The notes beneath the pieces are model-generated. The model had not been told where the DNA came from. It ran no database searches and saw only the letters and a list, made by a program, of their open reading frames with translations. From Carnobacterium sp. CP1 (GTDB lineage: Bacteria; Bacillota; Bacilli; Lactobacillales; Carnobacteriaceae): a stretch of DNA of 64,000 bases. The position numbers were made by a program, and so were the translations under genes. Of the stretch, positions 5,888-52,637 are shown piece by piece; the first letter of the stretch is position 1, and each line of letters starts with the position of its first letter. The stretch spans positions 2,029,501-2,093,500 of the forward strand of contig NZ_CP010796.1 in NCBI RefSeq assembly GCF_001483965.1, read 5' to 3'.

Positions 5888-6814
5888 TTAAAATTGAGCG
5901 AACACTACTCCAATCGTATACAAAATAGGGTAAAGCATCATGATAGCAGCCATATTTTTTAAGGCAACTGGAAAGGTTTTTTGTTTATCTTGAACTTCAA
6001 AATAAGGCGATAAGCTTTTCCAATATTTGGGAAACAAAAGAACCAGCAACAAGATAGGGAATGGAGCTAACTTCAAGTAAACCAGCAAAATCAACCATAA
6101 AAAATTAAAAACAAATACGACTTTAAATAATTGCACAGCTTTCTTTTTACCTAAGTAATAGACTAATGTTTTTCGCCCATTTACAATATCTTCTTCTAGG
6201 TCACAAGTATTATTGGCCAATAAGTTGTTAAACATCATGACCACCATTGGCAAACTAATGAAGAAAACTAATTTTATGGTGTGGAAAGAAAAATCAACCT
6301 GATCATACAAACACAAATAAGCACCAATTAAAGGAATGACAAAACCGCTGAACAAAGAGGTAACTGTTTCAGCAATGGGCAAACTATTTAATGGTTTTGG
6401 CCCTGATGAGTAAAATAAACCAACATAAAAACCTAGTACGCCTAATCCCAATAACACTAAATTGGTAGACCAGACTAGTAGCAGACCAAAAAAAGAAGCC
6501 AATGCTAAAAAGAATAGAAAAGCTTTCTTTACCGTTGCTAGATTCAGATTTTCTCTTCCGATGATATTTGATTTTACTTTGTAATCATGAGCGTCTGAAG
6601 CATTTTTATAATCCATATAGTTATTAAAAATATTAACGGCCACATGGAAAAAAAGAATCGTTAAAACGTATAAAATTATCCGCCAGTTCCAAGTATGGTT
6701 GTAGTGGTAAGTTGAAAAAGAAACTCCTAATAGAATTAAAAAAAGGTTTAAGGGAGAAGTGTAGATTTCTCCAAGTTCCCATAATACTTTAAATTTAGCT
6801 TTGATCGTATCCAT
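5888..6814 (-). CDS. menA: UbiA-family prenyltransferase, MenA-like
   Basis: The 308-residue, multi-pass membrane protein resembles 1,4-dihydroxy-2-naphthoate polyprenyltransferase of menaquinone synthesis. The first Asp-rich motif is NIFNNYMDYKNASDAHD and the second is NNLLANNTCDLEEDIVNGRKT, the latter ending in the NGRKTL typical of MenA. About eight hydrophobic helices are visible. AGGAG directly abuts the ATG at 6814, which is tighter than normal, so the true start is uncertain. No other men gene is nearby, so use for demethylmenaquinone in a respiring lactic acid bacterium is inferred from family. Confidence 0.8.
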   Translation of the reverse strand: MDTIKAKFKVLWELGEIYTSPLNLFLILLGVSFSTYHYNHTWNWRIILYVLTILFFHVAVNIFNNYMDYKNASDAHDYKVKSNIIGRENLNLATVKKAFLFFLALASFFGLLLVWSTNLVLLGLGVLGFYVGLFYSSGPKPLNSLPIAETVTSLFSGFVIPLIGAYLCLYDQVDFSFHTIKLVFFISLPMVVMMFNNLLANNTCDLEEDIVNGRKTLVYYLGKKKAVQLFKVVFVFNFLWLILLVYLKLAPFPILLLVLLFPKYWKSLSPYFEVQDKQKTFPVALKNMAAIMMLYPILYTIGVVFAQF

Positions 6815-25474: not shown

Positions 25475-26557
25475 TTAGATTGCAACCGATTGAGTCAAAG
25501 ATTCCACAGCTTTCATTGCCTGTAACACATCTTCTTTTGTAACTCCCGGTACCGCCAAATTAAAGGTTTCAGCATCAGATGCAGCGAATGCAGCTACTTT
25601 TTCAGCTTTTTTCAATACTTCTTCAGTTACGCCAAAATCAGAAAAACGATGAGGGAATTGGTTTTCCACAAAGAAAGGCAGTAATTTTCGGACTTCTGCT
25701 TGGTCACCGGAAGCCCAAAGCTGAACAAGAACCCCATAAGCTACTTTTACACCATGTTCAAAAGCATGGGTTTCGTGAACGAGCGACATTCCGTTATGAA
25801 TGGCATGTGCTCCAGCCATTCGACCATATTCACCGGCAAATCCGCCAACTGTTCCAGCAATCGCCACAACTGCTTCTGCAACGCGCTGGAATGCAGGTGT
25901 TAATTCACCGCGTTCCAAACTTTCTAATGCTTCTTTGCTGTCTTTTAGAAGCAGCTCTTGAGTAACTTTTGCAGTTTTCAATCCGACTTGTACCATAGCA
26001 GGCAATTCAGTAGCTACATGTCGAGTGATGCCTTCTGCTTCATACCATTTAGCCAACGTATCTCCGATGCCGCCCATAAAATATTTTTTAGGAGATTCTA
26101 CCAATAAATCTAAATCCATTAAACACAACAGAGCAGCTTTTTCGTAATAATCAACGACTTTAAATGAGTGATCAGGATGATAAACGGCGGAAAGTGGAGT
26201 ATAGGCAGCACAGGTTCCTAATACAGTAGGAATGGTGACATACTCAACTTGTAATAAATCCGCTGTTCCTTTTGCAGTATCCAAAGCACGTCCACCGCCG
26301 ATTCCGACTATACAATCGGTACCTTCTATAAGTTTGGAGAGGCGAGCCATATCTTCATGGGAAGCAGTGCCATCATACTGATAAACAGGTAATTCTAAAG
26401 AACCTTTATAATATTTTTGGAAAGCTTTATATGACAACTCGCCAGTGATGATAACGGGAGTGGCAAAAGAGGATAACTTTTCATCTAAATAGTTTAGTGC
26501 TCCTGGTTCACACAAAAACTGACCGGGACCTGGACGAACAACTTGACTTAAACGCAT
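25475..26557 (-). CDS. Iron-containing alcohol dehydrogenase family oxidoreductase (HcxA/GldA-like)
   Basis: The 360-residue protein has the GldA-type NAD-binding motif GIGGGRALDTAKG. Metal ligands are suggested by GGIGDTLAKWYEAEG, HAIHNGMS and HETHAFEHG. The GDTLAKWYEA segment resembles E. coli HcxA (YbdH), which reduces 2-oxo acids such as 2-oxobutanoate, more than true glycerol dehydrogenase; this assignment is from memory of the family. A structured leader with a short Ile-rich ORF lies upstream (26734-26912). AGAAGG precedes the ATG at a distance of about 9 bases. Confidence 0.8.
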   Translation of the reverse strand: MRLSQVVRPGPGQFLCEPGALNYLDEKLSSFATPVIITGELSYKAFQKYYKGSLELPVYQYDGTASHEDMARLSKLIEGTDCIVGIGGGRALDTAKGTADLLQVEYVTIPTVLGTCAAYTPLSAVYHPDHSFKVVDYYEKAALLCLMDLDLLVESPKKYFMGGIGDTLAKWYEAEGITRHVATELPAMVQVGLKTAKVTQELLLKDSKEALESLERGELTPAFQRVAEAVVAIAGTVGGFAGEYGRMAGAHAIHNGMSLVHETHAFEHGVKVAYGVLVQLWASGDQAEVRKLLPFFVENQFPHRFSDFGVTEEVLKKAEKVAAFAASDAETFNLAVPGVTKEDVLQAMKAVESLTQSVAI

Positions 26558-26619
26558 AATAAATACCTTCTTTCTGTTATTTAAGAGATTATCTTGCTAA
26601 AGAGACTGCAGTAGGAAAT

Positions 26620-26709
26620 TCATAAGAATAGTTCCAATTTGTGCTGGTGAAATTTGTATCTACAGTTCAGTTTCATTAAATATTTAATAAAACTAATGTC
26701 ACTTTCCAT
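26620..26709 (-). CDS. Small ORF between attenuator and dehydrogenase gene
   Basis: This 29-codon frame begins MESDISFIKYLMKLN and ends LELFL. AAAGGA and GGTGAT precede the ATG. It lies after the leader terminator and before the dehydrogenase, in the same direction. I do not recognise the peptide; it may be translated, or be chance. Confidence 0.3.
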   Translation of the reverse strand: MESDISFIKYLMKLNCRYKFHQHKLELFL

Positions 26710-26733
26710 ATCACCACATCCTTTCGAGAAAAT

Positions 26734-26912
26734 AAAAAGACCACCTATTCAATAAATGAATGGGTGATCTAAATCCCATTCAACCAAACAAGCGTGAATA
26801 GGACTTAAACTACTGTAAAAAACCTACAGTGCTTAAATCCTGGTTCTAATAATAATAGCTGTTTGGTTGAGTAAATATGTCATGGGATCTTTCCTCTCAT
26901 AAGTTAATAATG
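26734..26912 (-). promoter_or_regulatory. Leader-peptide transcription attenuator
   Basis: On the minus strand a short ORF is followed by mutually exclusive stems. Strand 1 (26840-26833) pairs with strand 2 (26809-26801), with an inner CTGTA/TACAG. The terminator is 26769-26757 with 26751-26739, then five U. Strand 2's CCTATTCA (26802-26795) can instead pair with TGAATAGG (26751-26744) in the terminator. A further long-range pairing, CAACCAAACA (26869-26860) with TGTTTGGTTG (26790-26781), is possible. This is the logic of amino-acid attenuation. Confidence 0.6.
26833..26883 (-). CDS. Candidate leader peptide, 16 residues
   Basis: The ORF encodes MTYLLNQTAIIIRTRI. AGAGGAAAG stands at normal distance before the ATG. 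Three consecutive Ile codons (ATT) and a fourth before the stop would let ribosomes stall when isoleucine is scarce; the stop codon lies in strand 1 of the first hairpin. Translation is inferred from position and ribosome site only. Confidence 0.5.
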   Translation of the reverse strand: MTYLLNQTAIIIRTRI

Positions 26913-35361: not shown

Positions 35362-35511
35362 TATAGTAGGATTTGTTAAAGGAGAGGCATCTCCGATGAC
35401 AAAATAAACAGAGTAGGAAATAAAGCGTTAAGTGTTGATGGGATGGGATGTTGCCCTCAAACGAAAAATTGTCTTGGCAATTTGCGGTTTTATTTCTGCA
35501 TTCGCTGCATA
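35362..35511 (+). promoter_or_regulatory. Tetrahydrofolate (THF) riboswitch and promoter of folT
   Basis: An extended -10 (TGC-TATAGT, 35362-35367) starts a leader whose part from 35409 matches the THF riboswitch: GAGTAGG, GCGTTAAGTGT, GGGATGGGATGTTGCC and, at the 3' end, GCGGTTTTATTTCTGCATTCGC. No terminator follows, so control is probably at translation of folT, whose ribosome site is about 25 bases on. Confidence 0.88.
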
Positions 35512-46539: not shown

Positions 46540-46580
46540 TTGACGATGGTAAGCTAAGGCTGTATCATTTTTATTGGGCT
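46540..46580 (+). promoter_or_regulatory. pyrG promoter with GGGCT initiation site
   Basis: TTGACG-17-TATCAT is followed 8 bases later by GGGCT (46576-46580). In B. subtilis pyrG, low CTP at such a start causes reiterative G addition. Confidence 0.8.
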
Positions 46581-46668
46581 CCCTTAAAATTTTTTTTAAG
46601 GGACAAGGACTAAAAGGTATTTATTTAGCTCCCTATTCTTAGTTGAATAGGGAGCTTTATTTTTTTGT
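46576..46668 (+). promoter_or_regulatory. pyrG attenuator
   Basis: The leader begins GGGCTCCC and ends in a terminator, GCTCCCTATTC (46628-46638) with GAATAGGGAGC (46645-46655) and a T run. Extra 5' G residues added at low CTP can pair with GCTCCC and prevent the terminator, as established for B. subtilis pyrG. An extra hairpin, CCCTTAAAA/TTTTAAGGG-like (46581-46602), lies between. Confidence 0.85.
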
Positions 46669-52567: not shown

Positions 52568-52637
52568 TCTACTGTTGTCTAAAAAATAAAAAAAACTCTG
52601 GTTCAGCAAATGTATCAGGGCAAAGGAGCGAAAGCAC

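Follow-up and report, generated by a model that had tools for sequence, protein, structure and literature searches.

A leader peptide with consecutive isoleucine codons and a five-segment RNA switch predicted to control an HcxA-like dehydrogenase gene in Carnobacterium sp. CP1

The stretch of Carnobacterium sp. CP1 DNA analyzed here, referred to as the window, is 64,000 nucleotides long. On its minus strand, a leader of about 180 nt lies upstream of a gene encoding a 360-residue protein of the Fe-ADH family. The features of the locus, all on the minus strand, are the following.

26943-26938 and 26920-26915, minus strand: probable promoter, -35 TTGAGT and -10 TATGCT with a 17-nt spacer; 8/12 consensus; position shared with relatives.
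26889-26898, minus strand: Shine-Dalgarno-like GAGAGGAAAG of the leader ORF, recognized by sequence.
26883-26833, minus strand: leader ORF MTYLLNQTAIIIRTRI, 16 codons and a stop; an ORF with I/L/V codons is found in 87/87 of the aligned rows kept.
26860-26889, minus strand: segment 0, composed of GATCCCAT (26889-26882) and CAACCAAACA (26869-26860); in the fold without a ribosome, its predicted partners are segment 3 and the 2:3 loop.
26825-26841, minus strand: segment 1, AGGATTTAAGCACTGTA, putative 5' arm of hairpin 1:2, holding the leader stop; covariation of helix 1:2.
26795-26817, minus strand: segment 2, TACAGTAGTTTAAGTCCTATTCA, putative partner of 1 or 3; covariation of 1:2 and 2:3.
26772-26782, minus strand: segment 3, TGAATGGGATT, putative partner of 2 or 4; covariation of 2:3 and 3:4.
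26757-26769, minus strand: segment 4, GATCACCCATTCA, putative partner of 3 (antiterminator) or 5 (terminator); covariation of 3:4 and 4:5.
26739-26751, minus strand: segment 5, TGAATAGGTGGTC, putative distal terminator arm; covariation of 4:5.
26725-26738, minus strand: U-run of the intrinsic terminator with the bases that follow it, TTTTTATTTT, recognized by sequence.
26558-26733, minus strand: spacer between the terminator and hcxA, containing a 29-codon ORF.
26709-26620, minus strand: the 29-codon ORF, MESDISFIKYLMKLNCRYKFHQHKLELFL, behind a AAAGGATG-type site; possibly a remnant.
25475-26557, minus strand: the gene proposed to be regulated, encoding an HcxA/YbdH-like dehydrogenase of the Fe-ADH family, 360 residues (PF00465).

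The best NCBIfam matches of the dehydrogenase are glycerol dehydrogenase (PRK09423) and PRK10586, both below their curated cut-offs. PRK10586/NF007880, the model of E. coli YbdH/HcxA, scores it at 223.7 bits, under the NF007880 cut-off of 429. The Asp, His and His residues at the metal-ligand positions of glycerol dehydrogenase are conserved. Judged by its sequence, the protein is HcxA-like.

The first-pass annotation had described a promoter, a ribosome site, a 16-codon ORF with three ATT codons, a stop in the first hairpin, and a terminator. All of these lie where it had placed them, on the minus strand. The three ATT triplets are Ile codons 10-12 (26856-26848), the TAA stop sits within the 5' arm of the first hairpin (segment 1), and the terminator (26769-26739) runs into the U-run. 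A consensus scan listed neither a promoter nor a terminator at the leader. The terminator was presumably missed because of an internal mismatch in its stem. For the promoter, relatives were compared instead, and counterparts are found at the same position in two close relatives (TTGACT-17-TATCCT in L005 and TTGACT-17-TATTCT in L010). A scan with the CodY box consensus gave no match near the leader and 12 matches in the window, compared to 15.6 expected.

Thermodynamic folding, which the first-pass annotation had suggested as a check, shows that the leader is far more stable than shuffled sequences: -59.7 kcal/mol versus -31.4 +/- 3.8 for 200 shuffles (z -7.4), none of the 200 being as low. In the fold predicted without a ribosome, the mean pairing of segment 0 with segment 3 is 0.90. 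The 10-bp and 8-bp long-range pairings claimed previously are present in the sequence and are formed in this fold. The 8-bp part is absent in the close relatives L003 and L005, as judged by eye in a nine-sequence alignment, and on the same kind of inspection of nine aligned sequences start-codon sequestration was rejected as a general feature.

Among 59 genomes, a DNA search found related leaders in 8, one of them the window's own. These leaders keep a short ORF with an I/L/V codon run and are located before BASS and HcxA genes, HcxA alone, ilvD, or a branched-chain aminotransferase with an Fe-ADH relative. A covariance model, R1, built from nine sequences including the Listeria-like L008, matches 136 of the 395 order genomes sampled (38 of 80 genera; own genome and model members included) and 37 of the 398 class genomes (9 of 146 genera); some genomes are in both draws. 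Thirty of the 37 class genomes belong to a single family, f17, and are very probably staphylococci. The 28 f17 loci that were read each precede a gene beginning like ilvD and have leaders of 21-27 residues. For closer comparison, 78 regions, hand-picked for genus spread, were taken from the 150 order matches listed (more exist, so that further BASS/HcxA loci may be present outside these regions), together with two weak hits of the window's own genome. Scored together with the loci found earlier, these gave 96 matches, of which 87 were kept; those dropped were L009 (the same sequence as L064), L052, L053, window 15689, window 46565, and the reverse-strand matches of L003, L005, L064 and L068. 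L004, L006 and L011 duplicate the positions of L010, L055 and L054, respectively.

Among four genus mates, none has an R1 match under strict filters; two have an HcxA relative of 29-30% identity, and the other two have none at E 1e-40. The leader of Oceanobacillus piezotolerans (L012) is followed by BASS and a 78% identical HcxA, which suggests horizontal transfer of the whole leader-BASS-HcxA cassette. Three further R1 hits were rejected as second attenuators: C1:637762 (E 3e-4) and window 46565 are without a leader ORF by the rule used, and the leader ORF at window 15689 is without a run of three I/L/V. The weak hit at 46565-46661 (plus strand) has no leader peptide and lies 43 nt before a gene that resembles CTP synthase in its first residues; it may be a pyrG-type terminator leader. 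Rfam models also locate a THF riboswitch (35407-35509, plus strand, 79 bits) and an L31-Firmicutes leader (52596-52628, plus strand, 33.7 bits) in the window.

The five segments can pair as a chain, 1:2, 2:3, 3:4 and 4:5, of which only 1:2 and 4:5 are contained in R1. These two helices have 89.6% and 97.3% of their cells paired, respectively. Across the 87 aligned rows, helix 2:3, which is outside the model, has 93.9% of its cells paired and two-sided changes in 40 cells, compared to a mean of 9.9 in shuffles. Helix 3:4, also outside the model, has 85.8% of its cells paired and 34 changed on both sides, compared to 16.5. None of 500 shuffles was as high in either case, and controls in which the segments were slid reached at most 61.5% paired for 2:3 and 71.4% for 3:4. 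Helix 3:4 is the weakest of the four: five of its pairs have two-sided changes, and 36 of 500 shuffles had at least as many. Helices 1:2 and 4:5, to which the alignment was fitted, have segments 2 and 4 in common with the two other helices. Taken as a model derived from aligned sequences, the pattern supports four mutually exclusive helices, including a terminator and a competing antiterminator. The first-pass annotation had staked its reading on the fate of the short ORF, the Ile codons and the stems in homologues; in the relatives the ORF and the Ile codons are conserved and the stems are compensated.

To predict the consequences of ribosome position, we assumed that the edge of the ribosome lies 12 nt beyond the first base of the codon in the A-site and folded each of the 87 leaders from that edge through segment 4. 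Equilibrium folding with such an edge is a crude proxy for kinetics, and removing segment 1 makes the probability of 1:2 zero by construction. The predicted probability of 3:4 is larger for a ribosome stalled at the start of the codon run than for one at the stop in 87/87 leaders, by more than 0.3 in 56 of them. It exceeds 0.5 in 68/87 leaders in the stalled state (and is 0.5 or less in the other 19), in 15/87 with the ribosome at the stop, and in 29/87 without a ribosome. In the window, A-site codons 2-11 give 3:4 at 0.99 and codons 12-17 give 2:3 at 0.99-1.00. According to this calculation, a ribosome waiting at Ile 10 or 11 would switch the gene on, and one at Ile 12, too near segment 1, would lead to termination. 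Averaged over the loci, the switch occurs with the A-site some 10-12 nt upstream of segment 1. The I/L/V codons are dense at roughly 8-24 nt upstream of segment 1, so that most, though not all, are on the antitermination side; those at 8-10 nt occupy positions where 3:4 is already disfavored. The stop codons fall on the termination side.

Very likely, the leader attenuates transcription of hcxA by a ribosome-mediated mechanism that responds to charged tRNA-Ile and works through the alternating helices 1:2, 2:3, 3:4 and 4:5. The isoleucine control of the dehydrogenase by attenuation proposed previously is supported by the conserved ORF, the Ile codons and the compensated stems; translation of the leader, stalling of the ribosome and readthrough in vivo we infer. 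When isoleucine is ample, the ribosome would reach the stop inside segment 1 and block 1:2. Segment 2 would then take segment 3, leaving segment 4 for segment 5, and the resulting terminator would end transcription. When isoleucine is scarce, the ribosome would stall at Ile codon 10 or 11, just before segment 1, allowing 1:2 to form. The free segment 3 would take segment 4 before segment 5 is made, and RNA polymerase would continue into hcxA. For an untranslated leader, the prediction is that the region of the start codon pairs with segment 3 and its flank; the terminator would then win and hcxA would be off.

The codon run of the leader fits the next gene. Downstream genes were clustered, and representatives were typed by family models as ilvD, ilvB, leuA, ilvE_II, Liv-type binding protein, BrnQ, Rid family, BASS (SBF) and HcxA-like. 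Eighty-six loci were classed, with L061, which has a peptidase downstream, left out of the class test. In the class of 31 leaders preceding BASS/HcxA (16), ilvE (2), Liv-type binding protein (11), brnQ (1) and ridA (1), three consecutive Ile codons are present in 27 and three consecutive Leu codons beyond residue 4 in none. The BASS/HcxA leaders have the Ile triplet in 14 of 16, the other two having runs with two consecutive Ile, and 15 of the 16 have a Shine-Dalgarno match of at least 4 nt. The leaders of leuA have the Leu triplet beyond residue 4 in 8/8 and the Ile triplet in 0/8. Leaders of ilvD and ilvB contain Ile, Leu and Val all within the last 13 residues in 45 of 47 cases; III is also found in 6/47 and LLL in 16/47. 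Fisher tests on distinct C-termini gave p values of 1e-11 (III) and 3e-13 (I, L and V together), which are too small, because the rows are related. Since the Liv, BrnQ and ilvE leaders also mostly carry Ile runs, the Ile codons are no proof of an Ile-specific HcxA substrate.

Some loci carry more than one attenuator. In L074 (hits at 6034 and 4501, minus strand) and L076 (301 and 1849, plus strand), tandem attenuators precede two paralogous Liv-type binding proteins, with codons for SIIIII then VVVIVI in the former and VVV then IIIII in the latter. The paralogs may serve Ile and Val separately. L102 (301, 3493) and L107 have ilvD followed by a BASS gene and leuA, and L102 has a second, Leu-type attenuator before leuA. 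In L099, a Rid-family gene lies downstream of an Ile-codon attenuator, an arrangement that would tie imine detoxification to isoleucine supply.

The genomes in which the leader precedes BASS/HcxA are informative about the metabolic role. There are 17 of them, counting that of L007 (G042), which is outside the 87 rows. Neither ilvC nor ilvD has a match in 13 of the 17, the window's included (completeness 97-100%), and a branched-chain aminotransferase is present in all 17. As controls, three genomes with ilvD leaders and 14/14 named genomes match both ilvD and ilvC. Because ilvC and ilvD have no match, 2-oxobutanoate cannot reach isoleucine by the usual route in the 13 genomes. The first-pass annotation had rationalized the control by the role of 2-oxobutanoate as an isoleucine precursor, and in the window's genome this rationale fails.

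The BASS proteins provide another clue. The solved structure nearest to the L003 protein is that of a Neisseria meningitidis transporter with pantoate, a branched 2-hydroxy acid, whose 2-hydroxyl contacts Asn265 and Gly267. In that study, changing Asn265 to Ala abolished binding, Thr112 was replaceable, and Asn295 contacts the far hydroxyl of pantoate (PMC10645422). The 14 BASS proteins directly behind a leader keep Thr112 and Asn265 and have Thr in place of Asn295; the two behind ilvD (L102 and L107) have Asp at 265 and keep Asn295. Branched 2-hydroxy acids have been reported as products of lactic acid bacteria (PMC11432647).

The lack of ilvC and ilvD matches in 13 of the 17 genomes, the aminotransferase in 17/17, the BASS residue pattern and the production of 2-hydroxy acids reported for lactic acid bacteria led us to propose, tentatively and at a little under an even chance, that the regulation serves the salvage of isoleucine from branched 2-hydroxy or 2-oxo acids, not its synthesis from 2-oxobutanoate. 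The acids would be imported (by BASS, where present), oxidized by HcxA and transaminated by the aminotransferase. It is rather unlikely, although the attenuation itself would stand, that HcxA removes 2-oxobutanoate or other 2-oxo acids by reduction, as proposed previously, or serves redox balance. The E. coli HcxA does reduce 2-oxoglutarate and 2-oxobutanoate, and the Rid family, linked to 2-iminobutyrate, has a member behind such a leader in L099. However, 13 of the 17 genomes offer no usual route from 2-oxobutanoate to isoleucine, induction by lack of isoleucine fits uptake or salvage, and the BASS partner keeps the Asn265 required for pantoate binding in the homolog. Control by such a leader would tie these dehydrogenases, whose role as a family is uncertain, to the supply of isoleucine, and the BASS-HcxA cassettes would gain a testable function in bacteria seemingly unable to make branched-chain amino acids.

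In the window itself, hcxA follows the terminator without a BASS gene. The ends of the spacer match BASS-flanking sequence of L010 (Desemzia sp.) over 38 nt (92%, E 1e-9) and 25 nt (88%, E 1e-3). A search of the window's genome turned up no full-length BASS; the sole match was a partial one to SBF, at 37 bits and interrupted by a stop. Because both of its ends match sequences that flank BASS in L010, the spacer looks like the scar of a BASS gene lost in the window's lineage.

Two attenuators of this kind have been described. Rli60 is the ribosome-mediated ilv-leu attenuator of Listeria (PMC5864092; reviewed in PMC8079631), and another attenuator precedes ilvD in Staphylococcus aureus (PMC5794164). 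The Rli60 model of Rfam, RF02414, scores the window at 39.1 bits (E 5.8e-4), under the gathering cut-off of 60, and gives 180 bits for L008 and 74 bits for L129. The cut-off was reached in 2 of 4 loci and then in 0 of 16 others. The window leader and Listeria Rli60 may share a common descent: R1 aligns the window with L008, partly by construction, L008 being one of its nine sequences, and the sub-threshold RF02414 match of the window points the same way. The family very probably includes both Rli60 and the staphylococcal attenuator.

The published mutants of these systems bear on a simpler switch of the classic four-segment trp type, in which the stalled ribosome would block strand 1 and strand 2 would take the distal strand of the terminator. 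The first-pass annotation had noted the complementarity on which such a switch depends, and its 8 bp (CCTATTCA/TGAATAGG) are indeed in the sequence, but the switch is better explained by pairing of segment 3 with the proximal terminator arm. A ribosome stalled at either of the first two Ile codons would be too far 5' to reach over segment 1. Where segment 1 is covered, 2:3 results and the terminator arms are left free, and 3:4 covaries. In Listeria, start-codon or ribosome-binding-site mutations in the leader lower ilvD at low BCAA (PMC5864092), as trp-type super-attenuators would. These mutants fit the fold predicted for the window without a ribosome and conflict with that of L008, for which antitermination is predicted. 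In Staphylococcus, selection for growth without valine yielded a suppressor in which a leader Leu codon has become a stop, and the authors infer relief of repression (PMC5794164). Such a mutant is the opposite of a super-attenuator, and fits the five-segment relay, if the stop is far enough before segment 1. We regard the trp-type switch as quite improbable.

It is scarcely credible that the leader is an ordinary terminator with a chance ORF and that hcxA is read from another promoter, because, although there are promoter-like sites inside hcxA (11 in the region, 9.0 expected by chance), several families of the order have kept the ORF, the codon run, the position of the stop and the alternate helices. 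Equally remote is a tRNA- or metabolite-binding leader (a T-box or riboswitch), which the high degree of structure and the terminator might suggest; in the window leader every Rfam family stays below its cut-off, the highest-ranking being the ribosome-mediated rli60, T-box models are without a match up to E 5, and the leader codons track the gene.

The leader has close published relatives. Rli60 and the window leader share a leader peptide with branched-chain codons, a terminator and antiterminator, and the place before the gene. They differ in that the window has an Ile run without Val and is predicted to control hcxA, and in that the published model has four segments compared to the five proposed here. 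The published Rli60 antiterminator has -10.3 kcal/mol (PMC5864092), and 3:4 of L008, its possible counterpart, has a similar -10.7. The staphylococcal attenuator is similar in its Ile/Leu leader peptide, GAAUGG motif and terminator. It differs in controlling ilvD and in its antiterminator, described as GAAUGG paired with the U-tail (PMC5794164), whereas covariation here points to the proximal terminator arm. The open-access literature yielded no such mechanism for HcxA or BASS, in searches that did not pair those names directly with attenuation, and no report on the regulation of HcxA. Thus the earlier statement that no such attenuator is known for this enzyme family stands for the target, and hcxA appears to be new as a target of a branched-chain attenuator; the kind of RNA had already been described in Rli60 and staphylococcal ilvD.

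The most inclusive reading, held more tentatively than salvage by itself, is that an order-wide attenuator family with Rli60 as one branch was recruited, with Ile codons, to a transporter-dehydrogenase cassette, that the five-segment relay replaces the four-segment switch of the trp type, and that branched 2-hydroxy acids excreted by neighboring cells serve as an isoleucine source for bacteria without the Ile/Val pathway. If true, this would be a new regulated route of amino-acid salvage. The results suggest that Rli60, described in Listeria, belongs as a branch to a wide family of regulators in which the leader codons tell what the downstream genes do, and the relay would constitute a revised mechanism for two published attenuators. 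In the E. coli ilvGMEDA and trp-type attenuators, the position of the ribosome at the rich codons chooses the fold. The leader described here would differ from these in having five alternating segments: the ribosome that has finished the leader peptide acts on segment 1, and two pairing steps relay the signal onward.
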